A stretch of 50,023 nt of DNA from Bacteroidota bacterium (GTDB lineage Bacteria > Bacteroidota > Bacteroidia > Chitinophagales > Chitinophagaceae): positions 1-50,023 of the forward strand of contig JABDFX010000012.1 of NCBI GenBank assembly GCA_013286315.1. Direction: 5' to 3'. The notes beneath the pieces were generated by a model. The model worked only from the letters and a program-made list of their open reading frames with translations, was not told where the DNA came from and made no database searches. Position 1 is the stretch's first letter. Every line of letters begins with the position of its first letter. The position numbers and the translations under genes were made by a program. Shown here in pieces: positions 21,250 to 42,517 of the stretch.

Positions 21250-21311
21250 CAAAACTATCAAGTGCTTCAACCAGGCAAAAGAACATGTCGTTGAAAAGGC
21301 AAAATCAGTCG
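21250..21311 (-). promoter_or_regulatory. Regulon promoter site 7 (sugar dehydrogenase operon)
   Basis: On the minus strand: half-site CGACTGATT, then the box TTGCCTTTTCAACGACA (21302-21286), and a -7 element TAGTTTTG (21257-21250). The first T of the box is exactly 45 nt from the first T of the -7 element. The ATG at 21220 follows about 24 nt past the expected transcription start. It is divergent from site 5. Confidence 0.75.
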
Positions 21312-21337
21312 CCGGATCAGGAGGACTCTCATTTCAG

Positions 21338-21399
21338 CTACTGATTTTGCCCGATGAACGATTGCCCAGGCTTCCCGGTTTTCATAGAATCTAATTTTA
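21338..21399 (+). promoter_or_regulatory. Regulon promoter site 5 (DUF1275 gene)
   Basis: Half-site CTACTGATT, box TTGCCCGATGAACGATT (21347-21363) and a -7 element TAATTTTA (21392-21399). The 45-nt spacing is exact. It serves the gene at 21477 with a leader of about 75 nt. Confidence 0.75.
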
Positions 21400-21476
21400 T
21401 CATTTACGTCGACAAATAAGAATCAGGATCAATCAAACGGCCGGCTGGCGATATAAACAAACAAAGCATTTATTTT

Positions 21477-22217
21477 ATGAAAATAGACAGAGTCATTTTT
21501 ACAAGTGTTATTTTAAGTTATGTTGCAGGTTACGCGGATACTTCAACCTTTATTGGTGCTGACGGGCTATTCTCTGCGCATGTTACCGGGAACTTCGTGA
21601 TGCTACCCTATGATATCGTAACAAATCGTATAGCTGCTTCCTGGATAAAACTGATTTCCTTTCCTGTCTTTATTCTGGCTGTATTTATTTCTACTCAGAT
21701 TATTAATCATGTCAGGGATGACAGGAAGGCTATTAACAGATTCATGATCCTGGAAGGTACTCTGTTGATCATATCCGGATTGATTGCCTGGATTTACAGA
21801 CATCAAAACACGAACTCCATACTAAACGGATTGATACCCATGCTGGTGGTTTTTGCAATGGGATTACAAAATGCCTTCGGCCGTTTCTTTTCAAAGCAGG
21901 TTTTTGCACCAACCACCTTAATGACAGGCAACACAACTCAATTTATTATTGACCTGGCAGGATACCTGAAACATAAGGATGAGGAGAAACAAAACCTGAA
22001 ACAAAAGCTTGTGCATGGCATGTATATTATTTTACCATTTTTGATTGGTTGCTTCAGTGGGGCATTCATCACGAAAGCAGTTGGTCTGGGATCGTCTGTA
22101 TTTATTGGCCTGCTCATGTTGTTGCTGCCCGCAAAACAAAAATCAACCCGCAGTTATTGTTTTGATGTGAGGGTTCCGATTGCTCAATGCGGGGAAATGA
22201 AAAATCTTGTTTCCTAA
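21477..22217 (+). CDS. DUF1275 (YoaK-like) integral membrane protein
   Basis: 246 residues with about six transmembrane helices. Family signature in the first helix pair: S-Y-V-A-G-Y-A-D-T-S-T-F-I-G-A-D-G-L-F-S-A-H-V-T-G-N-F-V. It is repeated in spirit later as M-G-L-Q-N-A-F-G-R and T-L-M-T-G-N-T-T-Q. DUF1275 proteins are inner-membrane proteins of unknown function. The last 25 residues (S-Y-C-F-D-V-R-V-P-I...) are polar and lack family similarity, so the natural C-terminus may have been extended. It is monocistronic; the next gene has its own regulon promoter 30 nt downstream. Confidence 0.9.
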   Translation: MKIDRVIFTSVILSYVAGYADTSTFIGADGLFSAHVTGNFVMLPYDIVTNRIAASWIKLISFPVFILAVFISTQIINHVRDDRKAINRFMILEGTLLIISGLIAWIYRHQNTNSILNGLIPMLVVFAMGLQNAFGRFFSKQVFAPTTLMTGNTTQFIIDLAGYLKHKDEEKQNLKQKLVHGMYIILPFLIGCFSGAFITKAVGLGSSVFIGLLMLLLPAKQKSTRSYCFDVRVPIAQCGEMKNLVS

Positions 22218-22237
22218 TCTCCATAAAGTGCAATCAT

Positions 22238-22299
22238 CTATACTTATTGCCCATTGAACGATTTGCGATTCTTCTCTTCTGTTTCTTAAAGTAGGTTTA
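22238..22299 (+). promoter_or_regulatory. Regulon promoter site 3 (efflux operon)
   Basis: Half-site CTATACTTA, box TTGCCCATTGAACGATT (22247-22263) and a -7 element TAGGTTTA (22292-22299), with the exact 45-nt offset. The ATG at 22323 follows about 20 nt after the expected start of transcription. Confidence 0.78.
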
Positions 22300-22322
22300 C
22301 ATCAACATTAAAAACAAACAAA

Positions 22323-22832
22323 ATGAAACAGCCTGTATATCTCAAAAGCTTTGAATATTCAATTCCTGCTTCTGAAAAGGATTTTTCCGACAGAGGTTAT
22401 TTGTACGGAGAGTATGCAGAAATGCATTTGCCGCTGGTGAAAGTAAATATTGACTTCGAAAACAAATGGCTGGTTCTCGAGAGTAACGGATTTACTGCAA
22501 AATCCTCATCATCAAATATAGAACGCACCCAATTTGACTTTGGAAAGAAAAGAATAAGAGTGAACGCCAATATTTATTGCGGCTTAGATATTAATCTGGC
22601 TGGTTCCTCAGGTGATGAATTGGTTTTCTTATTGGAGGGTATCATGGACGATGGTGAAAGTATAAATTCCTGTTCCGGCCTGCTGGTTATTGATACCGCA
22701 ACGGGCAGATACGAATCCGCAGGAAAAAAATATGACTTAAGAGTTTACCTGTATGACAATAACGACGAGGACAGGGAGATAAAACTCGATCTGATGATGT
22801 ATTCACTTTCGCAAAATGCAGAATTAAATTAA
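22323..22832 (+). CDS. Hypothetical protein heading the RND efflux operon
   Basis: 169 residues, no signal peptide or membrane helix, beta-strand rich and acidic (pattern V-K-V-N-I-D-F, W-L-V-L-E-S-N, R-I-R-V-N-A-N-I-Y-C-G-L-D-I-N). I do not recognise the family. It is the first gene after a regulon promoter and is followed after 13 bp by the TolC-like gene, so it is very likely co-transcribed with the efflux pump. It could be a cytosolic accessory or sensor protein, but nothing in the sequence proves that. Confidence 0.7.
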   Translation: MKQPVYLKSFEYSIPASEKDFSDRGYLYGEYAEMHLPLVKVNIDFENKWLVLESNGFTAKSSSSNIERTQFDFGKKRIRVNANIYCGLDINLAGSSGDELVFLLEGIMDDGESINSCSGLLVIDTATGRYESAGKKYDLRVYLYDNNDEDREIKLDLMMYSLSQNAELN

Positions 22833-22845
22833 TCTGATTAAAGAA

Positions 22846-24255
22846 ATGGATATGGAAAAGAAAAAATATTTATGGATCTGGCCGATGTGGATTATTCTAT
22901 TCTGTCAGATACCTGTTGCCGCCCAAAATCCGGACAGGATTTTATCCATGACCGATGCATTGCAAATCGCATCATCAAATTATATGATTCAATCGAAGAC
23001 CAACTATACCCGGTCATCCGCTGAAGCCGTTCAGGCAGCCAAAAAAGTGGCCCTGCCGGATTTCACTTTAGCAGCTCAGACGGCCTATGGAACATTAAAC
23101 GGCGTGACAGGACTTGGCTCAGGATTACCTGGTATTACAACCATTACAGCATCTTCCAATGCCTCGCAAAACATGAATGCCAGTTTCGGAGCATTATACA
23201 ATGTAAATATAAATATGAATGTTTTTTCCTTCGGCCTGCAAAGAGCATTTGTAGCGGCCACCAGGGGTCAGTATGAACAGGACAGGGCAGATCTGCGGCA
23301 AACAAAATTTGATGTAGAGACTACGGTGATCGGTTTATATCTGAACCTTTTGACAGCACAGCGTCTGCGCATGGTGATGCAGGACAATGTGGAACGGATC
23401 AGCCGGCTGAGGGATATCATTCTGGCAAGGACTATGAACGGACTGAATCCGGGTGTTGATAGTTCCATTGCCAATGCAGAACTTTCGACAGCCAGAATCT
23501 CGCTGACCGATGCAGAAAATTTTGAGCAAAGCCAGGCCAGTGAGTTGTCAAAAGAAATGGGCGTAAAGCAAACCTTTTATAATCTAGATACAAGTTTCGT
23601 TACAACGCTTCCAAAAACCATTCCGGCGCAGAACGAAATAAATCTGCAACTGCATCCGGTTTTGCGTTACCTGGACAGCAGGATCATTACCAGCGACCTG
23701 ACAGCTGCCTATATACAAAAAACAGCCCTGCCCAGGTTTAGTTTTTTTGCTGTGGGACAGGAACGGGGTTCCGGATTCGGCAGCAATTTTTCTACCGATC
23801 CGAATGACTATTCTGATAATTTTTTGAAAGGGGCCGATCCTGTGCGGGCCAATTATCTGGTGGGTATCGGAGTTACATGGAATATCACCGACTTAACGAG
23901 GGTGAAATCGAAGGTCCAGAGCCAGCGTTTTATTTCGGACGCTTATAAAGATGATTATAACCAGGCAGAAATAAAATATGCTGATCAGTTGAAATTCGCC
24001 AATCAGCAAATCGATAACGTGCTTACCAAATACAGAGAAGTGCCCGTCCAGTTGAAATCAGCGGAGGATGCCTACAATCAAAAAAAGGCATTGTACGAAA
24101 ACGGTCTGACCAATATCGTTGATGTGACACAAACATTATACTTTCTGAACCAGGCAGAAGCAGCCAGCAATGTCGCCTGTAGCGCCGTATGGCAGGCGCT
24201 GCTGTTTAAAGCTGTCTCTGCAGGAGACACCAGTATGTTTTTATTACAATTTTAA
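22846..24255 (+). CDS. TolC-family outer membrane efflux protein
   Basis: 469 residues. Signal peptide to about residue 27 (...I-P-V-A-A-Q). The OEP fold shows the two long helical repeats: N-terminal M-T-D-A-L-Q-I-A-S-S-N-Y with the following A-A-K-K-V-A-L-P-D-F, and C-terminal Q-K-K-A-L-Y-E-N-G-L-T-N-I-V-D-V-T-Q, the classic Y-x-x-G-x-x-x-x-x-x-x-x-x-Q motif. It forms the outer membrane channel of a tripartite pump with the RND protein and membrane fusion protein encoded directly downstream. In this operon the channel gene comes first. It starts at ATG 22846 or at the ATG two codons later. Confidence 0.92.
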   Translation: MDMEKKKYLWIWPMWIILFCQIPVAAQNPDRILSMTDALQIASSNYMIQSKTNYTRSSAEAVQAAKKVALPDFTLAAQTAYGTLNGVTGLGSGLPGITTITASSNASQNMNASFGALYNVNINMNVFSFGLQRAFVAATRGQYEQDRADLRQTKFDVETTVIGLYLNLLTAQRLRMVMQDNVERISRLRDIILARTMNGLNPGVDSSIANAELSTARISLTDAENFEQSQASELSKEMGVKQTFYNLDTSFVTTLPKTIPAQNEINLQLHPVLRYLDSRIITSDLTAAYIQKTALPRFSFFAVGQERGSGFGSNFSTDPNDYSDNFLKGADPVRANYLVGIGVTWNITDLTRVKSKVQSQRFISDAYKDDYNQAEIKYADQLKFANQQIDNVLTKYREVPVQLKSAEDAYNQKKALYENGLTNIVDVTQTLYFLNQAEAASNVACSAVWQALLFKAVSAGDTSMFLLQF

Positions 24256-24265
24256 ATTAAAACAA

Positions 24266-27200
24266 ATGAACCTTATTACAACTGCATTACGTAAGCCGGT
24301 CGCGGTCATCGTGCTGGTTTCGGGGCTTGTCCTGTTCGGGATCATGGCAGTCAGAACAATCAATATAGATATTTTCCCGAATCTGAATATTCCAACTATT
24401 TATGTGGCTCAACCATATGGCGGTTTATCTCCGCAGCAAATGGAGGGATTTATTTCCACTAACTATCAGAATATCTATTTGTACACAGACGGACTTAAAT
24501 CGATAGAAACAAATAATATTCAGGGATTGAGTTTGTTGAAACTCAGTTTCTATGAAGGCACCAATATGGCGCAGGCTGCCGCCGAGGTCACGGCTCTTTC
24601 CAACCGGGCCGCTAATGAAATGCCACCCGGTACCCCACCGCCGTTTATAATACGGTTTGATGCGTCCACACTTCCGGTGGGGCAATTGGCATTGAGCAGT
24701 CCCAAACGCAGCGTCACCGAATTAGAGGATCTGGCCAATGTATGGGTAAGGCCCAGTTTTTCAAAAGTGCCGGGACTTGCGGCCATTCCTCCCGTTGGTG
24801 GCAATGTGAGAACTGTTTTAATCAGTATAGATCCCGATCTGATGCGCAGTCACAATATTACTCCGCAACAGATAACTGCCGCCGTGCAGGACAATAGTCA
24901 TATTTCAGCGGCTGGTATTGTTAATATGGGTAAAACCTCTTACCTGACGCCAGTCAATACAGTGCTTTCAAAGATTCCGGACTTCGGTAATATTCCTTTG
25001 CTGTATCAAAATGGCGCAACTGTCTATTTAAGGGATGTGGCAAAAGTTGAAGACGGCGCAGATATTACAACCGGTTTTGCTTATGTGAATGGTAAAAAGT
25101 CTATATACGTACCCATCGTAAAAACGGCGGGTGCCTCCACCTGGTCGGTAGTACAGGATTTGAAGAAAGCTATTCCTTCCATGCAATCCCTGCTTCCGGA
25201 AGACGTGAAATTAAATTTTGAATTCGATCAGTCGGTCTATGTCATTAACGCCGTGGACAGCCTGATCCACGAAGGGGTCATTGGCGCATTCCTGACCGGC
25301 TTAATGGTGCTGTTATTCCTGAGAGATCCAAGAAGTGTTTTGATCGTGCTGGTCAATATCCCCATATCCATTATCACCAGCACCCTGTTACTGAAAGCAT
25401 TCGGACAGACCATTAATATTATGACACTGGGCGGTCTTGCACTGGCCATTGGTATTCTGGTGGATGAATCCACAGTGACGGTTGAGAACATACATCGCCA
25501 TATGGAAATGGGAAAGACGAAAGCCAGAGCGGTTGCGGATGCCTGTCATGAAATTGCCATGCCTAAATTATTGATCCTTTTAAGCACACTGGCTGTATTC
25601 GCTCCCGCTTTCCTTATGACCGGCGTTCCAAAGGGCATGTTTCTGCCTCTGTCCATGGCTGTCGGATTTTCGATGATCACTGCATTTCTTTTGTCTCAAA
25701 CACTGGTTCCTGTTTTGTCGAACTGGGTATTAAAGGATAAGGTTCATAACCAGGCGGAAACACAACCAGCAAAACCACCCGGCGGCTTTGATAAATTCAG
25801 ACAACGATTCCTGGGTTTGCTGGGAAAAGGATCAGAACACAAAAAACTTGTCATTGGTTTCTATTTCCTAAGCACATTGGCTATTACCGCTGTGGCTGTC
25901 AATTCAATTGGAAAAACGATTCTTCCTCCCGCAAATGACGGACAATTCCAGGTACGTCTCAGGGCTCCGCAGGGTTCCAGACTGGAGCATACGGAAGTCA
26001 CTTTGTTACAGGCTCAGGATGTATTATATAAAATGGTCGGAAAACAAAATGTAGAAATTACTTCCGCTTTTCTCGGAACGCAGCCTGCCAATTTCGCTAC
26101 GCTGCCCATCATATTATTCACCAGCAGTTCCAATGAAATCCTTTTGCAGGTGGCTCTCAAACCTTCATACAAAATAAAAAATACAGATGACCTGGAAGAA
26201 AGCTATCGCAAGGCGCTTCATCAGGCGATGCCCGATCTCAGCATATCGTTTGAGCCCATAGACCTCACCGACAAGATTATGAGCCAGGGTGCAGCAACAC
26301 CCATTGAAGTAGCCATCATGGGTAAGGACCTGGAGCAAAGCAATGTCTATGCGCAAAAAGTGATGAGCGCTATGCGAAAAATACCCTATCTGCGGGACAT
26401 CGGACTAAAAGAACAATTGAAAAACCCGGCTATTCTAATCAATATCGATCGTGAAAAAGTAAAACAACTCGGTCTTAGTATGACTGAAGTATCCAACTCA
26501 TTAACATCCGTTACTTCTTCCAGCCGGTACATACAAAAAATGTTATGGATGGATGAGTCAAATGCCACTTCTTATGATGTTCAGGTAGAAGTACCACAGA
26601 ATGAATTATCGAGTATTGAAGATCTGGCAGATATACCGTTAAAACAAAATAGTCCAAGACCCGTATTGGGAGATGTGGCCACAATAACCAGGGATCACGT
26701 GATCAGTGAATATGATCGCCGGGGTGCCACAAGGTTTCTCTCTATCGGCGCAAATATTTACGGGAAAGACCTGGGTTCGGCGGCCGTTGCGGTAAACAAA
26801 GCGCTCAAAGAAATCGATGCACCTCCCCGCGGAATTTCTGTAGAGACCCGTGGAGAGGTGGGATTGCTGACACAAACACTGGGCAGTCTTCAAACAGGCC
26901 TGCTGATTACAATTGTTGTATTGCTACTGATGCTGGCAGCCAACTATCAGTCATTTCCGCTTTCCCTTACTGTACTTACTACTATCCCCGCAGTGCTGGC
27001 AGGTTCAATACTGATGTTGCTGGCCTGCGGTTCTACTCTCAACCTTGAATCCTACATGGGTATCATCATGTCAGTCGGGGTTTCCGTATCGAACGCAATT
27101 TTACTAGTCACCAATGCAGAAGAAATCAGAAAAGCAGGAAGCGATTCCATTCAGTCAGGGATTAAGGCTGCGGGACTTCGTTTACGTCCAATCCTGATGA

Positions 27201-27451
27201 CGAGCATTTCCATGGTTGTCGGAATGATACCCATGGCGACGGGCCTGGGAGAATCAGGCGGACAAACGGCGCCACTCGGCCAGGCAGTGATCGGTGGTCT
27301 CCTGGCGTCAACCTTCGCTTCCCTGATGGCCCTGCCACTTATATTTTCCATGGTTCAGAAAAAAAGAACTGTTCATTCTGTTTCTCTTGACCCCGACGAC
27401 AATCTTAGTCTTCATTTTGATCATCCAAATCATTTACAAGTCACACTATAA
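24266..27451 (+). CDS. RND family efflux transporter (inner membrane pump)
   Basis: 1061 residues from ATG 24266 (MNLITTALRKPVAVIVLVSGLVLFG), 10 bp after the channel gene; an upstream in-frame ATG lies inside that gene and is not used. The standard RND layout is visible: TM1, a large periplasmic porter domain, TM2-6, a second TM7 and porter loop, then TM8-12. In TM4 the motif reads G-I-L-V-D-E-S-T-V-T-V-E-N, so the proton-relay pair is D-E where AcrB has D-D. This D-E version occurs in a recognised Bacteroidota subgroup. It most resembles hydrophobe/amphiphile (HAE) type pumps; the substrate is unknown. Confidence 0.94.
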   Translation: MNLITTALRKPVAVIVLVSGLVLFGIMAVRTINIDIFPNLNIPTIYVAQPYGGLSPQQMEGFISTNYQNIYLYTDGLKSIETNNIQGLSLLKLSFYEGTNMAQAAAEVTALSNRAANEMPPGTPPPFIIRFDASTLPVGQLALSSPKRSVTELEDLANVWVRPSFSKVPGLAAIPPVGGNVRTVLISIDPDLMRSHNITPQQITAAVQDNSHISAAGIVNMGKTSYLTPVNTVLSKIPDFGNIPLLYQNGATVYLRDVAKVEDGADITTGFAYVNGKKSIYVPIVKTAGASTWSVVQDLKKAIPSMQSLLPEDVKLNFEFDQSVYVINAVDSLIHEGVIGAFLTGLMVLLFLRDPRSVLIVLVNIPISIITSTLLLKAFGQTINIMTLGGLALAIGILVDESTVTVENIHRHMEMGKTKARAVADACHEIAMPKLLILLSTLAVFAPAFLMTGVPKGMFLPLSMAVGFSMITAFLLSQTLVPVLSNWVLKDKVHNQAETQPAKPPGGFDKFRQRFLGLLGKGSEHKKLVIGFYFLSTLAITAVAVNSIGKTILPPANDGQFQVRLRAPQGSRLEHTEVTLLQAQDVLYKMVGKQNVEITSAFLGTQPANFATLPIILFTSSSNEILLQVALKPSYKIKNTDDLEESYRKALHQAMPDLSISFEPIDLTDKIMSQGAATPIEVAIMGKDLEQSNVYAQKVMSAMRKIPYLRDIGLKEQLKNPAILINIDREKVKQLGLSMTEVSNSLTSVTSSSRYIQKMLWMDESNATSYDVQVEVPQNELSSIEDLADIPLKQNSPRPVLGDVATITRDHVISEYDRRGATRFLSIGANIYGKDLGSAAVAVNKALKEIDAPPRGISVETRGEVGLLTQTLGSLQTGLLITIVVLLLMLAANYQSFPLSLTVLTTIPAVLAGSILMLLACGSTLNLESYMGIIMSVGVSVSNAILLVTNAEEIRKAGSDSIQSGIKAAGLRLRPILMTSISMVVGMIPMATGLGESGGQTAPLGQAVIGGLLASTFASLMALPLIFSMVQKKRTVHSVSLDPDDNLSLHFDHPNHLQVTL

Positions 27452-27463
27452 AAAATATGTAAA

Positions 27464-28570: not shown

Positions 28571-28612
28571 GGCGTTAGGCTAAGGCTTAAGGCTAAGGCT
28601 AAGGCTAAGGCT
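28571..28612 (+). repeat. Tandem hexamer (GGCTAA) after the efflux operon
   Basis: About six tandem units (GGCGTTA, GGCTAA, GGCTTAA, then GGCTAA several times) start on the base after the TAA stop. The unit GCGTTAGGCT also occurs directly after the DUF421 stop at about 9573-9582. Confidence 0.85.
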
Positions 28613-28703
28613 CATAATTTAAAAAAGGAATATCATCCTGCTATTGAACATACAAAAATAACAAATCATATATATTCATTCTTTTAAAGTAAAAAACACC
28701 TAC

Positions 28704-29495: not shown

Positions 29496-29612
29496 TTGTG
29501 GCCTGAGCTATAAATGATTATTACTAAACTTTTTTATCAGGATTTCGGAAATGTTTTGGAATTTTGTTTTTGATCTGCAAACAGTCCGTAGCATTCCTTC
29601 AATACATATGTT

Positions 29613-30800: not shown

Positions 30801-30806
30801 AAAAAG

Positions 30807-31814: not shown

Positions 31815-31841
31815 AAAAATTAACTTCTAAATCAGACAGTC

Positions 31842-33995: not shown

Positions 33996-34046
33996 TTTAT
34001 GAAATTTGTATGAGTAAAAAAATAACACCCTTTACGATTGCGATTT

Positions 34047-35330
34047 TTATCTATTTCCGATTCGTATCAATCTTCCATTTTCTGCATCAGTAACAACCCA
34101 CAGTGCGCCGTCTGGACCCTGCACTATATCGCGCATACGCTGATGCTGATCCAATAACAAACGTTCTTCTCCGGTCACCCGATTGTTCTCTATGACAAGT
34201 CTGACCACATGCTGGCCCGCCAGTGCTGCAATAAATAAATTTCCATCCCATTCCGGGATAATACTTCCATTATAAAAAGTTGAACCGGAAGGTGCAATGG
34301 TAGGATCCCAATAGTAAATGGGTTGTTCCATTCCTGCTTTTTGTGTAATATTTCCTTCGATGGGTCCGCCGGTATACTCAGCACCATAAGCAATTACAGG
34401 CCAGCCATAATTTTTCCCGGGCTTTACTATATTTACTTCGTCGCCTCCCTGGGTTCCATGTTCATCCTCCCAAAGATCGCCGGTCACGGGATTGAAGCAA
34501 AGTCCCTGCGGATTTCTGAATCCATATGCCCATATTTCCTTTAATGCATTCGGACTATCCGGAAAAACAGGATTTCCGGCAGCCGGCGTTCCATCTGTAT
34601 TGATGCGTAATATTTTTCCAAGTGCCGAACTCAGCCATTGCGCCTGGACGCGCGTTTCTTCATCCATCCGTTCACTGGTAGAGACAAATAATTTCCCGGT
34701 TTTATCGAATAATAAACGAGAACCGTAATGAGCCAGACTTTTGCTGTCGTTTGAAACCCTGTAAATGACTTTTACATTCCGGATTGAAAATTCATCGTTG
34801 GATAAAACGGCGGTAGCCACGGATAATCCGCTCCCCAATTCCCTGCGTTCCGAAAAACTGAAATAAATCGTCCGGTTGTTTTTGAAATCCGGATCGATTA
34901 CAATGTCCAGCAGCCCGGCATCACCGCCGTATACAATATTACGTGGCAGTCCCCGAATGGTGTCACTGACTAATCCGTCCTGCGTAACGATTTTTAAAGA
35001 ACCGCGTTTTTCTGTAATCAGCATTCTGCCATCAGGCATAAATGCAATGGACCATGGATGAAAAAGTCCGGTGGCTATTACCTGTTCCCGATAAGGCGTT
35101 TTCGTAATAACGGCAACTGCCCGGGTTTGTCCTTTGAATGCCGGTTTTTGATTCGTGCCGTATGTCGTATCCCGTTGCTCCAGGGTTTGGCCGGCTATCG
35201 GCTTTTGATCCGGTGGCCTGGTTCCGGCAACGATAATCCCATTGCCATTCCGGTTTTGAGCCAGGGAAAAGTGAACTATTAGCAGACAAATCAGTATCAT
35301 TTTACCTGATAACCTCTGGTTGAACTTCAT
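34047..35330 (-). CDS. PQQ-dependent sugar dehydrogenase (Asd/YliI-like)
   Basis: 427 residues. Signal peptide ends L-A-Q near residue 25. About 50 low-complexity residues follow, then the six-bladed propeller of the soluble aldose sugar dehydrogenase family: G-L-F-H-P-W-S-I-A-F-M-P-D-G-R-M-L-I-T-E-K-R-G, G-G-D-A-G-L-L-D-I, Y-G-F-R-N-P-Q-G, W-E-D-E-H-G-T-Q-G-G-D-E-V-N and N-Y-G-W-P. It ends R-M-R-D-I-V-Q-G-P-D-G-A-L-W-V-V-T-D. The family oxidises aldoses in the periplasm with PQQ. It is monocistronic, convergent with the molybdopterin enzyme, and carries regulon site 8. Confidence 0.92.
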   Translation of the reverse strand: MKFNQRLSGKMILICLLIVHFSLAQNRNGNGIIVAGTRPPDQKPIAGQTLEQRDTTYGTNQKPAFKGQTRAVAVITKTPYREQVIATGLFHPWSIAFMPDGRMLITEKRGSLKIVTQDGLVSDTIRGLPRNIVYGGDAGLLDIVIDPDFKNNRTIYFSFSERRELGSGLSVATAVLSNDEFSIRNVKVIYRVSNDSKSLAHYGSRLLFDKTGKLFVSTSERMDEETRVQAQWLSSALGKILRINTDGTPAAGNPVFPDSPNALKEIWAYGFRNPQGLCFNPVTGDLWEDEHGTQGGDEVNIVKPGKNYGWPVIAYGAEYTGGPIEGNITQKAGMEQPIYYWDPTIAPSGSTFYNGSIIPEWDGNLFIAALAGQHVVRLVIENNRVTGEERLLLDQHQRMRDIVQGPDGALWVVTDAENGRLIRIGNR

Positions 35331-35391
35331 GATTGTTTAATTAAATATTGGCAAAATTAATCACGTAACTATTCTGACATCTGACTTTAGG

Positions 35392-35453
35392 CGAATATAT
35401 ATTTGCTTCGGGGGAAGAAACAGAGCCAGTCGGTGAAAAGGCAAAAACAGTCG
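35392..35453 (-). promoter_or_regulatory. Regulon promoter site 8 (aldose dehydrogenase gene)
   Basis: Minus strand: half-site CGACTGTTT, box TTGCCTTTTCACCGACT (35444-35428) and -7 element TATATTCG (35399-35392), at 45 nt. The CGACT half-sites are exactly 21 bp apart. This is the clearest direct repeat of the set. The ATG at 35330 gives a leader of about 55 nt. Confidence 0.72.
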
Positions 35454-35540
35454 CCCGTTGAGTCGTGTTTCCTGCTGCACGTTCAGCAATTGATATATAT
35501 ATGGCGTTGCCGTTTCCCCCGTACCGGATAAAATGATAAA

Positions 35541-36683
35541 TCATCCATGCCGGAATGGTTTGTCCCCCAACCTGTTAATCCATTTGCGGCATGGCTGTTC
35601 AATCGCATAATATGTTATGGAAGAAATGCCTATCAAAAGTGCCAGATATATGACAGCGTATCCTAACCCGCTGGAAAAATTAATATTTTGTTTACCCCTT
35701 CCAAAACCAACCACGCCGGGTAAACGCAATCCCTTTGAAAAAGGCTCCTGAAGAAATATCTGCATTAAATAAATAGAGTACGATATTTTACCAATATACT
35801 GTGCAAGCCGGTTATTACAGAATGTATGAAGAGATCCGCTATTCAGTGCAAAACAAAGTACCAGTGCCGCAAATAAAATAATGCAAATCGCATCATTCAT
35901 CGCAAAATGCAATGCCAAAACCAGCATCGTGATAAACATAACCGCAAAAATATCTTTATGAAATATATTCTTTACCGAAGGCCATTGATACAGTTTGTAC
36001 ACAATCATTCCTGTTATAAAACCGGCGATACCCCGCAGGAAACCGTAATCATAGGTTGTGTTCAGGTTGTGTGGAACAAGTATGGATGGATATAAATAAT
36101 TTTTTCTCGGGAGAAAATACATGATTGAAATATATGCTGCGATTACAAACAGTCCAAATATGATAAGTGCAGGTAATTTTCTTTTATTCAGGAATAAAGC
36201 CAGAAAAGGAAATATTAAATAAGCTGCCCATTCTGCGCTGATACTCCATGAAGGAATATTCCAGGTGTAGATATCATGTATATAATATGAATGTAGCAAA
36301 AGAAAACCGGTTGGAATGGCCCTGGGATTCTCTATCGCACTGGGATAGGTACCGGGGGGCGACAAAAAAATTACAAGTATAACTAAAAGCAGTAATGAAA
36401 AGAAATGCAGCGGGTAAATCCGGGCAAATCTGGCTATGATGAATTTTCTTAAAGAATTCCTTTCGATATGCATGGCAAAATCTTCTTTATAAACATGCAG
36501 TATGATGAACCCGCTCATGATAAAAAAAAGATCAACCATTAAATAACATTTCTCAAAGAACATAGTCAGGTTAGCCGGCACAAACCGGGCAATGGCCATT
36601 TCAAAATGAAATACGGCAACAAGCACTGCAGCTATTCCCCTTAATGGTGTAAGATTCGATAAATATTCTGCTTTGTGCTCCAA
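35541..36683 (-). CDS. Acyltransferase family 3 membrane protein
   Basis: 380 residues with about ten transmembrane helices. Diagnostic motifs: N-terminal L-T-P-L-R-G-I-A-A-V-L-V-A-V-F-H-F (catalytic His region), V-D-L-F-F-I-M-S-G-F, R-F-A-R-I-Y-P-L-H, P-S-W-S-I-S-A-E-W and the C-terminal G-K-I-S-Y-S-I-Y-L-M-Q. This is the OatA/OafA/NodX-type integral acyltransferase that acylates sugars of surface polysaccharide or other envelope glycans. The acceptor is unknown, since no glycosyltransferases are nearby. It is transcribed alone. Confidence 0.92.
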   Translation of the reverse strand: MEHKAEYLSNLTPLRGIAAVLVAVFHFEMAIARFVPANLTMFFEKCYLMVDLFFIMSGFIILHVYKEDFAMHIERNSLRKFIIARFARIYPLHFFSLLLLVILVIFLSPPGTYPSAIENPRAIPTGFLLLHSYYIHDIYTWNIPSWSISAEWAAYLIFPFLALFLNKRKLPALIIFGLFVIAAYISIMYFLPRKNYLYPSILVPHNLNTTYDYGFLRGIAGFITGMIVYKLYQWPSVKNIFHKDIFAVMFITMLVLALHFAMNDAICIILFAALVLCFALNSGSLHTFCNNRLAQYIGKISYSIYLMQIFLQEPFSKGLRLPGVVGFGRGKQNINFSSGLGYAVIYLALLIGISSITYYAIEQPCRKWINRLGDKPFRHG

Positions 36684-36792
36684 ATTATTTTTTTATTCCC
36701 GGGTTATTGCAACTCATCAATATAATCATTGCCGATCGGAGTGAATGAAATTTTATCATATTCTACGTGTCGGATATCTCTAAAGTATGACG

Positions 36793-38967
36793 TTACCTTC
36801 TTCCGCCGCCACCGCCACCATGAAATCCACCGCCACCGCCACCATGAAAGCCACCCCCGCCAAATGCAGCAGGATGAAATCCGCCAAATGCACCCGGTGA
36901 AAAGCCCGCAGAATGCTGGAAACTCTGCACCCGGGATTGCCCGGCTTCGCGCATTTGCTGCTGCCTGTTCAGGTTGCTGATTGTTTCAGGTGAAAAACTA
37001 TTCACATGTGTTGCAGGGGAATTCATCTGCCATTGGCCACTGCTGCCTCTTTGAAATACATTTCCCTGCCTGTCAGAAAAAACATTATTCGCAGATCTTC
37101 CAAATCTTCCATTGGAGAAGGTTGGTCTGTTACCAAAATCCCTGCCATCGGAAATTCCAAAACCATTCCTCGTTTCAATGCCGTTTCTGTTGCGGTAAAT
37201 ATTATTTTCGGAATGTATGAACCCGTCGTGATATCCTATATTTCCTCCGTAAAAATCATGGCCGTAGTGATATCCGTAATTATGCCAGTATGCCGGATGA
37301 TAAAAAGATGGCCCCCACCAGCCGCCATACCAGCCGCCCCATCCCCACCCGAATCCTTCATTAAACCAGTCAAACCCATAATCCAATCCAAAACCCCAAC
37401 CATACCAGGGACTGTACATCACGCCAAACCCCCAGGACCAGGGTCGGGGATAATAATACCTGCCGATCCACGGATGGTAGTAAATGCCGGTTCCATAAAC
37501 GACTGTGGCGCCATAAATAAAACTGTTGAGATAACCTGACGTATATCCGGCATATATATATTCGGGTGTATAATCGTAGATGTCCACGAATTTGGAATTA
37601 TAAACCCATGAAGTGGGAGGAATCAGATCCAGATCCCCGGGAAGTTGAGTACTTGCAACCCATGGGCCGGCCGGATAATCCGAAATAAACCAAACGCCGT
37701 TATCCAGCGCATAATAACTTCCTCCAAACAATAAGACAGTGGAGGAAGTATTTACCGCATATTGCAAACGGGTACCCGCTATACTTTGAAACTGTGGGTC
37801 GCCGTCGTAGCTGACCTGTGTGGATGCTGTTTTACGATCCACTTTGGCTGTCTGGGCAACCTGCGCATCCATAACCGCTTCCCTGGAAGCTTCCGTTCCG
37901 GCAACACTGGCAAGGACATTATATTTCGGCGAACCTTCGGGAATTTTAGCAAAATCCGCGGGTAACTTGTCAGAGGCAACGAATTCCCACCCACTATTAC
38001 CCGCAAGCGATCCCGAATGATACCAGCGCCCTGAAATCAAAATATAATATTGTTCTGAGTTCGTGTCCAGGAAAATATCATCGGATGAATTTTCAACGTA
38101 TAACAAGGACGTTCCGGAAATGGGTAAGAAATCAGGTTCCCCATCACTCTGAATTAATTCTGCAGGAGTTGTGGTTACAATAACCGCAGGAATTAAGCTA
38201 TCCATTACCATACTCTCGTCAGGGCCATTGGGTCGATTGGAGTTGTCTTTGGCAAGTGTCTTTTCAATTCTCTCCAGTCTCCTGTCAATTTTACTGCTCA
38301 CAAATGAATAGGGCCCGGTAGCCGAAGCGGCGCTGTACCAATGCTCACCACCATAGAGATAAAACTGTCCGTCCTTATCTTTTACGATGGTAAACGGACT
38401 ATTGATAACCGCATCCAAACCCCATTTTTTGTTTTCCTGAATCTTAGGATCACCATCAATAATCACCAGAACCGATGGACGCGTTGCATAAATTATCCGG
38501 GGCACTTGTGTATTGATGTCGTTGGATAACTTGGTTTCATCCAGGTTTTGATCCAGTGTGGCCATCGTTTCATCCAGTGAAATGTTGCCTGCGGTTTCCG
38601 GAAGTTTTGATTCCAGGGTTGTCCTGATCTGGTTCAGATCATTTTCATTTGTATCGGCCGGGATTTTTATGTTTGAGATGAAAATGGAATCGATGGACAA
38701 TTGCCTGGTATTTCGGTCGGTTTCTACTCTGGATGTGGACCATATTGTGCCAAAGTCAGGATTGTTACTGCCATTTCTTAGTACGGATATAGCCGAAATC
38801 GACTTGAGTGTATTTCCTGCAAATGAATCCGGCTGAAACTGATATACTTTGATAACGGTACCGTCGGTTGCAGCGATCGTTAATGGCCAAACACTCTGCG
38901 CATAGCCGATATGATAAACAATAGTAGTGAAAGTCACCATCATGATTTTTCTTAAGAAGAGTTTCAT
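36793..38967 (-). CDS. Exported protein with aromatic/Gly-rich C-terminus ('carbohydrate-binding V/XII'-like)
   Basis: 724 residues. Signal peptide ends G-Y-A-Q near 24. The N-terminal half starts W-P-L-T-I-A-A-T-D-G-T-V-I-K-V-Y-Q-F-Q-P-D-S and has the repeated units G-D-P-x-F-x-x-I-x-G-T-x-L-x-Y and W-Y-x-S / W-F-I-S-D. This matches proteins usually labelled carbohydrate-binding family V/XII, whose activity is not established. From about residue 480 the sequence becomes extremely rich in Tyr, Trp, Gly and His (W-G-F-G-V-M-Y-S-P-W-Y-G-W-G-F-G), and it ends in a tandem G-G-G-G-F-H-G repeat. A coiled or assembling cell-surface role is possible but is inference. Confidence 0.78.
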   Translation of the reverse strand: MKLFLRKIMMVTFTTIVYHIGYAQSVWPLTIAATDGTVIKVYQFQPDSFAGNTLKSISAISVLRNGSNNPDFGTIWSTSRVETDRNTRQLSIDSIFISNIKIPADTNENDLNQIRTTLESKLPETAGNISLDETMATLDQNLDETKLSNDINTQVPRIIYATRPSVLVIIDGDPKIQENKKWGLDAVINSPFTIVKDKDGQFYLYGGEHWYSAASATGPYSFVSSKIDRRLERIEKTLAKDNSNRPNGPDESMVMDSLIPAVIVTTTPAELIQSDGEPDFLPISGTSLLYVENSSDDIFLDTNSEQYYILISGRWYHSGSLAGNSGWEFVASDKLPADFAKIPEGSPKYNVLASVAGTEASREAVMDAQVAQTAKVDRKTASTQVSYDGDPQFQSIAGTRLQYAVNTSSTVLLFGGSYYALDNGVWFISDYPAGPWVASTQLPGDLDLIPPTSWVYNSKFVDIYDYTPEYIYAGYTSGYLNSFIYGATVVYGTGIYYHPWIGRYYYPRPWSWGFGVMYSPWYGWGFGLDYGFDWFNEGFGWGWGGWYGGWWGPSFYHPAYWHNYGYHYGHDFYGGNIGYHDGFIHSENNIYRNRNGIETRNGFGISDGRDFGNRPTFSNGRFGRSANNVFSDRQGNVFQRGSSGQWQMNSPATHVNSFSPETISNLNRQQQMREAGQSRVQSFQHSAGFSPGAFGGFHPAAFGGGGFHGGGGGGFHGGGGGGRR
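36800..36870 (-). repeat. Gly-rich codon repeat at the gene's 3' end
   Basis: Imperfect tandem units of about 24 bp encode G-G-G-G-G-G-F-H / G-G-G-G-F-H-G. They sit inside the last codons of the exported protein and are liable to slippage. Confidence 0.7.
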
Positions 38968-39204
38968 TTTCTGTCTTTTTAATTTTTAAAAAAGGGCCAC
39001 ATAGAAATGCAGCCCGTAACCTTAACTGCTTAATGAGAAATCGTTCTTCCGATTTCCAAAACGAATGTACCTGTCATGTTTTCCTTTTAATTCCATAAAA
39101 CGGCTAAACGGCATGAATAGTCGTTAAAGCGCGGAATTCAATCGACGTTATATTTCCGGCTGTTTAAATAATTGAAGACCTCAGAATCAATAAGGTTTAT
39201 TCAT
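38968..39204. other. Intergenic region upstream of the exported protein
   Basis: No gene is visible. On the minus strand it holds a partial match to the regulon box: CGATTG and CGACTA half-sites 21 bp apart near 39120-39150, with AACGACT. No -7 element lies at the fixed distance. It also contains the leader of the large gene ending at 36793. Confidence 0.4.
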
Positions 39205-39266
39205 CTACACTTATTGCCCGCTGAACGATTCGCAGATTTCCCCGGTGCCGTCATCAGGTAGTTTTA
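39205..39266 (+). promoter_or_regulatory. Regulon promoter site 2
   Basis: Half-site CTACACTTA, box TTGCCCGCTGAACGATT (39214-39230) and -7 element TAGTTTTA (39259-39266), at 45 nt. It serves the small membrane protein at 39321 with a leader of about 50 nt. Confidence 0.78.
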
Positions 39267-39320
39267 CATCCAGCCATCCTGTACTGGCTTAAAAAATTGT
39301 AATCAAAAAAAAACATTAAT

Positions 39321-39671
39321 ATGTCAACTACAATTAGTCATCCGATTTTCATTACTCATGATAACACCGGATCTCTTCGGTCACTTATTAATAAATTTTT
39401 AGACTGGAGTGCTGATCAGCAGGAAAACCGGCTTGCATGGCAGGGTATTGGCCTTCTTGTATTTGGATGCTTCCTTACGCCTCTCTCTGTGTTGATAATG
39501 TCTCTGACAGGAGCAAATATGTTTTTCATCCTGATTGCTATTGCGGCAATGGGAGTGACTTTGGTGCTGGACCTGACGGCAATGCCGACTAAAATAACAA
39601 TCCCTGCTTTTTTTATTGGTGTTATAGCAGATATTACAATCATCGTTGTAAGTGCGATCGCCGCAATCTAA
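39321..39671 (+). CDS. Small membrane protein, unknown
   Basis: 116 residues. A polar N-terminus of about 40 residues (A-D-Q-Q-E-N-R-L-A-W-Q-G) is followed by three hydrophobic segments (I-G-L-L-V-F-G-C-F-L-T-P-L-S-V-L-I-M, F-F-I-L-I-A-I-A-A-M-G-V-T-L-V-L, and F-F-I-G-V-I-A-D-I-T-I-I-V-V). I do not recognise a family. The preceding regulon promoter and the clear topology argue that it is real. The next promoter (site 1) begins 45 bp after its stop codon. Confidence 0.7.
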   Translation: MSTTISHPIFITHDNTGSLRSLINKFLDWSADQQENRLAWQGIGLLVFGCFLTPLSVLIMSLTGANMFFILIAIAAMGVTLVLDLTAMPTKITIPAFFIGVIADITIIVVSAIAAI

Positions 39672-39715
39672 ATGGCGGAAACACTCGTTTCGCGGAATCC
39701 GTTAGCCTCAACCGC

Positions 39716-39777
39716 CTACACTTATTGCCCGTTGAACGATTCGTCCTTTTGGAAAAACATCGCAGAATATAGCTTTG
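39716..39777 (+). promoter_or_regulatory. Regulon promoter site 1
   Basis: Half-site CTACACTTA, box TTGCCCGTTGAACGATT (39725-39741) and a perfect -7 element TAGCTTTG (39770-39777), at exactly 45 nt. The box and the -7 element lie inside the longer frame that begins at 39672, which shows that the real start is the ATG at 39813. Confidence 0.8.
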
Positions 39778-39812
39778 TACCCTACATATTAATAAACAAT
39801 AAAACAAAGATT

Positions 39813-40403
39813 ATGAAAAAGTTTTTTTTAGCGACAGGTATTTTAATGGTCACCGCAATTACCGCGTCTTATGCGCAGGAATTTAATGACGACAATGCAA
39901 ATGACGTAAAGCCAACAATTACGAAAACCATGGCTGAAATTCAGAAAGAAGGAGCCGAAACAAATCAAAATGCGGTTAGTGTGTTTACCGTAAACCAGTT
40001 TGCCTCCGATTTTCCGGACGTTACGGATATTCGTTTTGACAGGGAGAAAGACCACGACGTAATAACCTATACACTGAACGGAAGAATCAACACCGCTTAT
40101 TATGACGATAACAATGAGCTGATGGGCACCATTCACAACAGATCAATGCAGGATTTGCCTGCCGAAGCGCAAACCGAAATTGCAAAGAGGTACGCTGATT
40201 ATACAGTCGTAAAAGTTGTCAGATTTAATGCGAACAGTGATAACGAATCATACATCGATATTAATTCTGAATTGCCTTTTTATGGAGATTCTTCAGAAAC
40301 CAGTAGCAATTATTTTGTTGAGCTAAAAAATAATGATAACAAAGCAATCGTATTAATGGTGGGACTATCCGGTGAAGTCAGTTTTTTCACAACTATGAAA
40401 TAG
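39813..40403 (+). CDS. Exported hypothetical protein
   Basis: 196 residues from ATG 39813. Signal peptide M-K-K-F-F-L-A-T-G-I-L-M-V-T-A-I-T-A-S-Y-A-Q. The mature part has a beta-rich fold of the BLIP/PepSY-like style seen in Bacteroidota: F-A-S-D-F-P-D-V-T-D-I-R-F-D-R-E-K, D-V-I-T-Y-T-L-N-G-R-I-N-T-A-Y-Y-D, and Y-A-D-Y-T-V-V-K-V-V-R-F. The fold assignment is tentative. It ends with a hairpin downstream. The upstream frame from 39672 is not used because the promoter lies within it. Confidence 0.75.
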   Translation: MKKFFLATGILMVTAITASYAQEFNDDNANDVKPTITKTMAEIQKEGAETNQNAVSVFTVNQFASDFPDVTDIRFDREKDHDVITYTLNGRINTAYYDDNNELMGTIHNRSMQDLPAEAQTEIAKRYADYTVVKVVRFNANSDNESYIDINSELPFYGDSSETSSNYFVELKNNDNKAIVLMVGLSGEVSFFTTMK

Positions 40404-40442
40404 TTTGGTATTCTTTCACCCCGGTTAATTTAAATCGACTAC

Positions 40443-40484
40443 GCAATGCGTGACCACCTTAGTCTGTGCTTCGGTGGTCATTGC
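40443..40484 (+). terminator. Hairpin, possible terminator
   Basis: A 7-bp core stem (GACCACC at 40452-40458, GGTGGTC at 40473-40479) with a 14-nt loop and partial outer pairing GCAATG/CATTGC. No T-run follows, so termination is uncertain. It lies between the genes at 39813 and 40520. Confidence 0.4.
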
Positions 40485-40519
40485 ATACCTGCACATTTCT
40501 ATTTTCTAATAATTAGTAT

Positions 40520-41059
40520 ATGAAAAATTTTATCAGCAAAGTGGCTTTGATTCTGGCCCTGCTTGTACTTAACAATCGCATCAACGCACAAAATTATAAT
40601 GACTACCGCGATGTGGAGGCGGTTATGTTACAGGTGAATGGGAATGCCTATTCTGAAAAAAAACTGGAAGGTGCTTTTATTGCGTTGCCTGATAATTCAA
40701 ACCAGCTGATTGTAAGGCTACACATTCCTTACTCGTCAATAAATGAAGCAGCGGAGGATACGATGACCTATTTACCGGATTATCATTTTAATTTAAGAAT
40801 GAAAATCGATTCCTGGAAAATACAGGAATCTCTTACCTCAGGTAAAACGTTTGAGACGGATGGATATTTAACACTGAATCATATTACCAAACTGGTGATG
40901 GTTGAATATACCCCACTACCCTCTCTGACTGTTCAGGATGGCGGTTTTAATCTGAATTTGATCATGGGATTCAATCCCGTTGATTTCCAACTGGATGTCC
41001 GGAATACAAATACAAGATATTTTATTAAGATTGGCGACGCACCGGTCAACCGTCTTTGA
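40520..41059 (+). CDS. Exported hypothetical protein
   Basis: 179 residues. Signal peptide M-K-N-F-I-S-K-V-A-L-I-L-A-L-L-V-L-N-N-R-I-N-A-Q. The mature domain is beta-rich with alternating hydrophobic strands (L-I-V-R-L-H-I-P-Y, Y-H-F-N-L-R-M-K-I-D-S-W, F-E-T-D-G-Y-L-T-L-N-H-I-T-K, G-F-N-L-N-L-I-M-G-F-N-P). The pattern resembles YceI/lipocalin-like periplasmic proteins, but I cannot assign it. Its stop abuts the stop of the minus-strand haem lipoprotein with no spacing. Confidence 0.7.
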   Translation: MKNFISKVALILALLVLNNRINAQNYNDYRDVEAVMLQVNGNAYSEKKLEGAFIALPDNSNQLIVRLHIPYSSINEAAEDTMTYLPDYHFNLRMKIDSWKIQESLTSGKTFETDGYLTLNHITKLVMVEYTPLPSLTVQDGGFNLNLIMGFNPVDFQLDVRNTNTRYFIKIGDAPVNRL

Positions 41060-41539
41060 TCATTTATAAAGCTGGTTGGTTATTGGAGGAACGGTGGGCG
41101 TAACGATCACGTTAAATGGTTTTTTCGTTGCCTGGTGACAGCTGTTGCAACTGGCATTTAAAAACAAAAAGCTATGCCGGAAAGCAACCATGTTTTTATT
41201 TTCTATGGCCTGATCTACGCTATCCATGGCGGGGTTTATCATAGCCGCGATTTTTGCTTCCGGATTATTACCATGGAATTGTTGTATTTTTTTAAAAGCG
41301 CTCAGAATCAGGCTTTCTTCATATTTGGCCAGAGCCCAGTTCCGGTTGTCGCCGGCAAACCAAAGTTTGGCGTGGTGCAACTGAATATTACCCATCAATT
41401 CACCAAATCCAGGCGTATAGTTATTTTTCAACTTCTTTTGCAGACTATCTACCTGTGCCTGTAAATGGTTTGTCTGGTCCTCGTTCTGACTACAGGATGC
41501 AAGTGTTAAGAATGAGAAAAGTATGGCTGATAATTTCAT
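41060..41539 (-). CDS. Lipoprotein with C-terminal haem site (cytochrome c'-like)
   Basis: 159 residues. A signal peptide with lipobox T-L-A-S-C at residue 16 makes it an anchored lipoprotein. A short coiled coil follows (L-Q-A-Q-V-D-S-L-Q-K-K-L-K). Four amphipathic helices lead to C-N-S-C-H about 25 residues from the C-terminus. A CxxCH near the end of a four-helix protein is the arrangement of cytochrome c' and related haem sensors. The gene is driven by regulon site 6 and lies next to the LytTR regulator. A redox or NO-binding role is possible but untested. Confidence 0.78.
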   Translation of the reverse strand: MKLSAILFSFLTLASCSQNEDQTNHLQAQVDSLQKKLKNNYTPGFGELMGNIQLHHAKLWFAGDNRNWALAKYEESLILSAFKKIQQFHGNNPEAKIAAMINPAMDSVDQAIENKNMVAFRHSFLFLNASCNSCHQATKKPFNVIVTPTVPPITNQLYK

Positions 41540-41562
41540 AAAATGCGTTTGTACATTGTAGT

Positions 41563-41624
41563 TAAAGCTAGTATCTCAGGTATGAGTAGCTTCAGGTAAG
41601 TCGTTCAATCGGCAAATAGTATCG
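41563..41624 (-). promoter_or_regulatory. Regulon promoter site 6 (haem lipoprotein)
   Basis: Minus strand: half-site CGATACTAT, box TTGCCGATTGAACGACT (41615-41599) and -7 element TAGCTTTA (41570-41563), at 45 nt. The ATG at 41539 is about 18 nt past the expected transcription start. Confidence 0.78.
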
Positions 41625-41695
41625 GTATATGAGAAGGCCTGGTAGTTCAGTTACTACAGATTTACCACTCAGCTAATAAGGGGTGGTGATGAAAA

Positions 41696-42391
41696 TTAAA
41701 TGATGTTCATTCTCTTGTTTAATGCTGCCCGGTAGGCATCCGCTACAGGTATGGGTTTTCGGTTTATGATCAATGCACCACCTTCCATGCTGTCAATCTT
41801 ATTGATGGCCACGAGATAAGAACGGTGAACCCTGAGGAACCTGGATGCCGGAAGTCTTTCTTCAACCGTTTTTAGTGTGGTATGAATGGCATAAAACTTT
41901 TCTGCTGTATAAAGTTTAACATAGTCGCCCATCGCTTCTGCAAATAATATACTATCCAGTTTCAGCCTGCGTACAATATTGGAATCACGAATAAAAACAA
42001 ATTCTTCTTCCCTTACATTCACCTCCTCCTGATTACTATCCAATATTTCCCTTGCCTTATCAATGGCCTGAATAAACCGGGGACCCGTTACAGGTTTTAT
42101 AATATAATCCACCACATTCAGGTCAAAGGCATCTGCCGCATACTCTTTTCTTGAAGTAATAAAAATAATGACGGGCCTCTTTTTTGTTAAGTTTTTGGTC
42201 AGCTCCAGTCCCGACATGCCAGGCATTTCTATATCGAGTAAAAGAAGATCTATGGATTCTGAGAGAATCAGGTTGTACGCTTCATAAGCATCCGAACATT
42301 CCGCAACAATCGTCAGGTCATCAACTCTGCCTGCCAATTCACTTAATGCTATTCTGGCCATTTTATTGTCATCAACAATCAGAGCGTTCAT
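41696..42391 (-). CDS. LytTR-family response regulator
   Basis: 231 residues: a REC domain (residues 1-120; acidic D7/D8 in I-V-D-D-N, phospho-acceptor D53 in L-L-L-D-I-E-M-P-G-M-S-G, Thr in I-F-I-T-S, Lys in Y-I-I-K-P-V). A LytTR DNA-binding domain follows (about 130-231; F-V-F-I-R-D-S-N-I-V-R-R-L, Y-V-K-L-Y-T-A-E-K, L-R-V-H-R-S-Y-L-V-A). LytTR regulators bind pairs of 9-bp direct repeats separated by about 12 bp. The genes on both sides carry a 21-bp-spaced direct-repeat promoter. The usual partner, a LytS-like membrane kinase, is not adjacent. Confidence 0.93.
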   Translation of the reverse strand: MNALIVDDNKMARIALSELAGRVDDLTIVAECSDAYEAYNLILSESIDLLLLDIEMPGMSGLELTKNLTKKRPVIIFITSRKEYAADAFDLNVVDYIIKPVTGPRFIQAIDKAREILDSNQEEVNVREEEFVFIRDSNIVRRLKLDSILFAEAMGDYVKLYTAEKFYAIHTTLKTVEERLPASRFLRVHRSYLVAINKIDSMEGGALIINRKPIPVADAYRAALNKRMNII

Positions 42392-42423
42392 ATACTAAAA
42401 TTAATAAATTTTGACGGGTTCGG

Positions 42424-42485
42424 CTATTGATTTTGCCTGCTGACCGATTGCTGTTATCTCCTGTTTTCTCAGGTGTGTAGCTTTA
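42424..42485 (+). promoter_or_regulatory. Regulon promoter site 4 (VIT-family gene)
   Basis: Half-site CTATTGATT, box TTGCCTGCTGACCGATT (42433-42449) and -7 element TAGCTTTA (42478-42485), at 45 nt. It lies in the divergent interval between the LytTR gene and the VIT-family gene. It overlaps the longer frame starting at 42473, so that frame's start cannot be used. Confidence 0.78.
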
Positions 42486-42517
42486 CAGTATTCATTCAAG
42501 ATATGATTCATTTACAG

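Follow-up and report, generated by a model that had tools for sequence, protein, structure and literature searches.

Almost all described LytTR sites comprise two repeats of 9–11 nucleotides (nt) with 11–13 nt between them, and share no common consensus (PMC4847170). In S. mutans, the LytTR repeats are located 4–11 bp upstream of the -35 element, and in Bacteroides 11-bp repeats with 11 bp between them precede TATCTTTG promoters (PMC6193735). The kinases of LytTR-family quorum-sensing systems possess the ATPase domain only (PMC8895600). The window analysed in this work is a single 50,023-bp contig (JABDFX010000012.1) from the 59%-complete, 3.31-Mb genome (202 contigs) of a Bacteroidota bacterium of the family Chitinophagaceae. 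It contains eight promoter elements of fixed geometry, which are conserved in relatives and co-occur with, and are partly linked to, the gene of a LytTR response regulator. The eight elements very probably constitute one regulon, in which a phosphorelay between a hybrid histidine kinase and this regulator would activate genes of efflux, redox and exported proteins.

The initial annotation of this DNA had listed a 17-bp box at eight places, each followed at a fixed distance by a Bacteroidota -7 element. All eight boxes were recovered as zero-mismatch matches (n = 8) on the strands given below, in each of the eight cases TAnnTT begins at a distance of exactly 45 nt, counted from the first T of the box, and the eight -7 strings read as annotated. 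The promoters and the genes that they serve are as follows.

21250..21316, minus strand: promoter 1, box 21286-21302, direct repeat and TAGTTTTG; serves the GSDH-like gene 19964-21220 and probably also the genes that follow it (cytochrome c, aldo-keto reductase, HIBADH-like)
21333..21399, plus strand: promoter 2, box 21347-21363, direct repeat and TAATTTTA; serves the DUF1275 gene 21477-22217
22233..22299, plus strand: promoter 3, box 22247-22263, direct repeat and TAGGTTTA; serves the uncharacterised gene 22323-22832 and the genes of an outer-membrane efflux protein (OEP), an RND pump and a membrane-fusion protein (MFP)
35392..35458, minus strand: promoter 4, box 35428-35444, direct repeat and TATATTCG; serves the glucose/sorbosone dehydrogenase gene 34047-35330
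39200..39266, plus strand: promoter 5, box 39214-39230, direct repeat and TAGTTTTA; serves the gene of a small membrane protein, 39321-39671
39711..39777, plus strand: promoter 6, box 39725-39741, direct repeat and TAGCTTTG; serves the gene of an exported protein, 39813-40403 (start read at 39813), and perhaps also 40520-41059
41563..41629, minus strand: promoter 7, box 41599-41615, direct repeat and TAGCTTTA; serves the gene of a lipoprotein with one CXXCH, 41060-41539
42419..42485, plus strand: promoter 8, box 42433-42449, direct repeat and TAGCTTTA; serves the VIT/MbfA-like gene within 42473-43000

The geometry exceeds chance, as the annotation had argued: 300 Markov windows contained on average 0.013 boxes and 0.003 boxes with a -7 element, compared with 8 and 8 observed, a figure that is post hoc because the pattern was taken from these same sites. 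Only the exact set stands out, since the 34 matches in the window at up to three mismatches lie at the level of the shuffle mean (38.6). The genome-wide scan that had been proposed as a check located the exact box at the same eight places only (control, 0). At up to two mismatches the genome yielded 301 matches against 261 in the control, which is near background, and the looser searches, at two or three mismatches, were discarded as reaching no more than that level. The refined whole-promoter model returned the same eight sites and no ninth at E ≤ 0.1; within the incomplete genome, the sites are confined to a 21-kb cluster. As a marker across genomes the exact box proved too weak, with at least one copy in 26 of 58 genomes, and therefore whole-promoter models were used.

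Alignment of the eight promoters identifies conserved columns C-[TG]-A-[CT] at positions -9 to -6 and, 21 nt later, C-G-A-[TC] at +12 to +15. The site approximates TTSAMCGAY, 12 bp holding TTGCC, a second TTSAMCGAY, 29 nt, and TAnnTTTR. With 74 sites from other genomes added, the consensus becomes ~TTCRnCKAYWGWTTTTGCCYGTTSAMCGAYTG, followed by a weakly conserved stretch and by TAGYTTTR from +45. Among the 74 non-window sites the ten columns -13 to -4 match those 21 nt further on at 58%, compared with 14–32% for the other offsets between 14 and 28. The box is therefore the promoter-proximal repeat plus the spacer core TTGCC: it stands as a shared element, but not as the whole site, the partner half of which is located 21 bp upstream. 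The 21-nt period (9 + 12) places the site within the dimensions of other LytTR sites. The -33 region is weak, with at most 0.28 bits per column at positions 20–26, and nearly all columns between the repeat and the -7 element are unconserved among the eight promoters. These statistics derive from 82 sites with a -7 element at +45, of which eight scored below 18.5 and were excluded from the 74 reference sites; the period statistic covered all 74 non-window sites among the 82. Model R2 was built from 44 of the 74 reference sites, the other 30 being L130, L163 and 28 sites found with model R1.

The spacing was also assessed with a 33-nt matrix that was derived from the eight window sites and excluded the -7 part. 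Applied to 51 loci encoding an ortholog of the LytTR regulator (41–76% identity), the matrix yielded 58 matches of at least 14 bits in 934 kb, compared with one match in 454 kb around 29 more distant relatives and four in the 51 loci read backwards. The motif TAnnTT[TCG] begins at +45 in 33 of the 58 and at +44 in six, and all other distances from 25 to 69 account for 11 together. The repeat is thus positioned just upstream of a promoter at a fixed distance. In a wider set of 110 sites, partly found by a model that included the -7 element, the latter is located at +45 in 82, at +44 in 10 and at +46 in none.

The proposed partners of the sites are encoded next to promoters 7 and 8.

41696..42391, minus strand: LytTR response regulator gene, located between boxes 7 and 8; its product is the candidate for binding the eight sites
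43353..45596, plus strand: hybrid histidine kinase gene (HisKA, HATPase, receiver and Hpt domains); proposed partner kinase

Among the 30 window proteins scanned (of 87 mechanically called open reading frames, ORFs), the only recognised DNA-binding domain is that of the 41696-42391 product. It combines the receiver and LytTR domains of LytTR response regulators (Pfam Response_reg PF00072, 1.2e-21; LytTR PF04397, 9.4e-20; both above cut-off). The LytTR domain motif FhRhHRS (PMC4227749) is present as FLRVHRS, and its residues F185, R187, H189, R190 and S191 are invariant in 15 aligned sequences. Of the 58 genomes searched, eight encode an ortholog with ≥64% identity: the source genome and seven others. 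Model R1 detected sites at E ≤ 0.005 in 7 of these 7 relatives and in 0 of the 50 other genomes; the source genome is left out of this independent count because it supplied the model. When R1 was applied to 393 further genomes of the family, scoring the best 12 candidates per genome, 22 contained a site at E ≤ 1e-3 and 21 of those also an ortholog at E ≤ 1e-70, while 326 contained neither (Fisher p = 5e-17). The remaining site-bearing genome, G243, encodes an ortholog of 69% identity that is cut by the contig end, 69 nt from the site. The proportion of loci with a site follows regulator identity: 10/10 at ≥64%, 15/18 at 58–63%, 4/11 at 50–57%, 5/12 at 41–49% and 1/29 at ≤40%. Each of 33 genomes of this genus contains at least 21–54 matches to the regulator at E ≤ 0.001, a count in which other receiver proteins are mixed.

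Several observations weigh against assigning the sites to this regulator. No strong site was found in G011 (best E 0.49), which encodes a 52% relative, and 45 of the 66 ortholog-bearing genomes of the family lack a site at E ≤ 1e-3. The refined model finds no site in G059 and one at 0.07 in G160, both ortholog-bearing, and gives partial matches without the -7 part in the ortholog-free genomes G316 (1.5e-4), G077 (8.6e-4) and G222 (0.005). An ortholog at E ≤ 1e-70 is absent from 7 of the 37 genomes with an R1 match at E ≤ 0.005 and from 25 of the 62 at ≤0.02; six genomes of the latter kind, when rechecked, contained paralog-level matches only (36–39%) or none at E ≤ 1e-40. Linkage is partial: 16 of 36 strong matches share a contig with an ortholog no more than 10 kb away (17 if G243 is included). 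The nearness of site and regulator is partly built in because the 51 loci were chosen through the regulator, and the co-occurrence tests are not fully independent because some genomes belong both to the family set and to the first 58; several named loci (L136, L137, L143 and others) come from the same genomes as some of the G-numbered ones. Finally, the spacer core TTGCC goes unmentioned in the LytTR-site descriptions compared.

As in AgrA, YpdB and other LytTR sites, two repeats, here in a 9-12-9 arrangement, are located upstream of the promoter (PMC4847170, PMC4227749). The present site differs from the AgrA/YpdB type in its repeat sequence, its conserved spacer TTGCC and its Bacteroidota -7 element. 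LytTR Regulatory Systems (LRS), including the LRS-like operons of Bacteroides, likewise have direct repeats, a few bp ahead of the promoter (PMC6193735). However, an LRS consists of a LytTR regulator and a membrane protein in an autoregulated operon (PMC6193735), whereas a receiver-LytTR protein, a hybrid kinase and several target operons occur here. LRS are distinct from two-component systems, and the receiver, together with a hybrid kinase in 32 of the 51 ortholog loci, separates the present system from them. The regulator shares its receiver-LytTR composition with the E. coli BtsR/YpdB-type LytS/LytTR systems, and its best NCBIfam match is the BtsR equivalog (NF008677), with 127.7 bits compared with a cut-off of 246 bits. 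Unlike LytS-type kinases, the kinase here is a hybrid that combines HisKA with receiver and Hpt domains; its best NCBIfam matches are BarA, LuxQ and TorS, each below cut-off. Such a partner looks unusual because the LytTR-family quorum-sensing kinases carry the ATPase domain only. A CHASE3 match in the sensor part is weak and does not reach the Pfam cut-off (6.5e-4). In 32 of the 51 ortholog loci, but in 0 of 29 paralog loci, there is a kinase match that extends from the sensor part into the core; it is not always directly adjacent to the regulator, and directly follows the regulator gene in G028, G029, G032 and G012.

We infer a course of events that runs from a presumed signal, through phosphorelay, binding and activation rather than repression, to predicted start sites. 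The neighbouring membrane hybrid kinase would phosphorylate the regulator, presumably at the conserved Asp53, by way of the receiver and Hpt domains of the kinase. The LytTR response regulator would then bind the direct repeat of 21-bp period, that is, two 9-mers 12 bp apart, which ends 29 nt upstream of the -7 element. From this position it may bring RNA polymerase, carrying the primary sigma factor of Bacteroidota, to promoters with a poorly conserved -33 region. The output would be largely envelope-facing genes: RND efflux, sugar-dehydrogenase-like, cytochrome, VIT-type transporter, DUF1275 and small exported proteins. The annotation had attributed the sites to one DNA-binding activator together with a sigma factor. 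The comparative evidence, with the spacing kept in other genera, supports a single binder, and its activating role and the start sites are predictions. A broader proposal is possible though doubtful: in a phosphorelay of long standing in Bacteroidota, the LytTR regulator would be driven by a BarA-like hybrid kinase and not by a LytS-type one, the near-invariant spacer GCC would serve an extra contact or a second factor, and the envelope and efflux genes under control would move between species with the promoter code preserved.

Activation is favoured over the variant in which the LytTR regulator binds and represses, or both represses and activates, which we consider improbable. LytTR proteins can repress, as AgrA does at bsaA (PMC4227749), but the repeat keeps a rigid distance from the -7 element, upstream of it and not over it, and the -33 region is weakly conserved, as in activator-dependent promoters. 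The identity of the binder might also be questioned. AraC-type regulators often bind two sites ~21 bp apart beside a promoter. In Filimonas (L156) and, judged by eye, in G379, the first gene under the site belongs to the AraC family, as does the second gene in two Chitinophaga loci (L142 and L144). However, a query with one AraC protein (from L144; E ≤ 1e-30) left 16 of 29 site-bearing genomes, including the 59%-complete source genome, without a homolog and identified one in 3 of 5 site-free genomes, and no AraC domain occurs among the 30 window proteins scanned. Binding by an AraC-type protein is accordingly rated as quite improbable, and the candidate was set aside on this one query, with which AraC regulator and site do not co-occur.

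The rigid spacing at 8 of 8 sites would also be expected if an alternative sigma factor read box and -7 element together. Sigma-factor element pairs have spacings far shorter than 45 nt, and the upstream part here is a direct repeat. The -7 part moreover resembles the ordinary Bacteroides element TATCTTTG (PMC6193735), and the chance that such a factor is involved appears very slight. Equally slight is the chance that one promoter was recently duplicated to give the eight copies, or that they are a mobile repeat. All eight reside in one 21-kb stretch, but the intervening columns diverge, no alignable flanks were seen in the promoter alignments, and the site precedes orthologous genes in other species; duplication of one promoter was rejected on the little similarity beyond the conserved columns. 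The LytTR regulator thus remains the preferred binder. No description of this regulon, and no target set for such a LytTR regulator in Chitinophagaceae or their neighbours, was found in the literature searched by title and beginning of abstract, a scope that leaves out most subscription papers. Within that literature the proposed regulon is new in its members and its DNA code, and known in kind. For one regulator of a family that is large in Bacteroidota it offers a DNA code that can be tested, and it unites in one case the regulator and its likely kinase with the DNA code, the promoter geometry and the conserved targets. Regulator-anchored site discovery of this kind is repeatable for the paralogs of the regulator.

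The genes assigned to the promoters in the annotation agree with domain searches and translations, except that the RND operon starts with the uncharacterised gene 22323-22832. Footprinting in relatives, also proposed there, revealed that orthologs of six of the eight window target units stand under a site. These are the GSDH-like gene of promoter 1 (G017, G012), DUF1275 of promoter 2 (G001, G012 and a split copy in G028), the VIT gene of promoter 8 (G017, G001), the lipoprotein of promoter 7 (G017), and the efflux and promoter-6 units. Under a site, G017 has the homolog of 22323-22832 (u169) followed by OEP and RND genes, as in the window, although u169 matches there in two pieces, and the genus-mate G008 has an OEP-RND-MFP-VIT operon. 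Relatives of the promoter-6 exported protein are under a site in G012, G028, L186, G139, G413, G105, G228 and G083. No ortholog under a site was seen for promoters 4 and 5 in this gene-by-gene comparison. In G001 the site precedes a different RND operon (L129). The u169 homolog leads regulator and kinase in G029 and G032, with a site ahead of it in G032.

Twenty-four further distinct sites in the family were examined for their downstream gene, defined as the first ORF of at least 60 residues within 350 nt (25 entries, one site appearing twice as L234/L252). Seven precede relatives of window proteins (five of the promoter-6 protein, one OEP and one u169). Other genes under a site encode AraC-type, thioredoxin/DsbA-like, YgaP-TM plus ferritin-like, and carbonic anhydrase proteins, RND parts, and short exported Lys-rich proteins. 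The target families in other genera follow no single theme; what the targets share, loosely, is the cell envelope, combined with efflux or redox functions.

G032 contains two copies of the regulator-kinase locus (L124, L035), and an aldo-keto reductase gene stands under a site in each. In the loci of eight relatives (L138:10716, L140:10735, L141:10727, L146:10744, L152:10728, L153:10731, L162:10731 and L186:10736) a box copy starts 20–48 nt past the regulator stop codon, before the kinase gene; six of these eight are without a good -7 element at +45. By eye, sites in G029 and G032 precede apparent decayed N-terminal AraC-like remnants (L123:1015-1341, minus strand, and L124:5686-5754, minus strand), the L123 remnant ORF having no Pfam match, and there the promoter seems to have outlasted its gene.

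The structure model of the 22323-22832 product is of low confidence (pLDDT, the predicted local distance difference test, 62.5) and found no match in the Protein Data Bank at E ≤ 0.001; that of the 39813-40403 product has a pLDDT of 70.3. Another window protein, encoded at 36793-38967, has 724 residues, a start resembling a signal peptide and a C-terminal part rich in Gly, Tyr and Trp; it matched neither Pfam at 0.001 nor NCBIfam at 1. At seven loci (L250, L252, L257, L269, L270, L222 and L232) short exported proteins rich in Lys, Ala or Thr are encoded downstream of the site. Five of the seven contain repeated KKDGTPDKRYK-like units, and the four that were scanned have no Pfam family above cut-off; we presume a resemblance to acid-shock-type proteins. 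A match of the VIT-type gene 42473-43000 to the iron exporter MbfA (NF045676, below cut-off) covers the C-terminal half (profile positions 160–318) and not the ferritin half, and in Mucilaginibacter L153 a ferritin-like gene (L153:9416-9889) stands second under a site.

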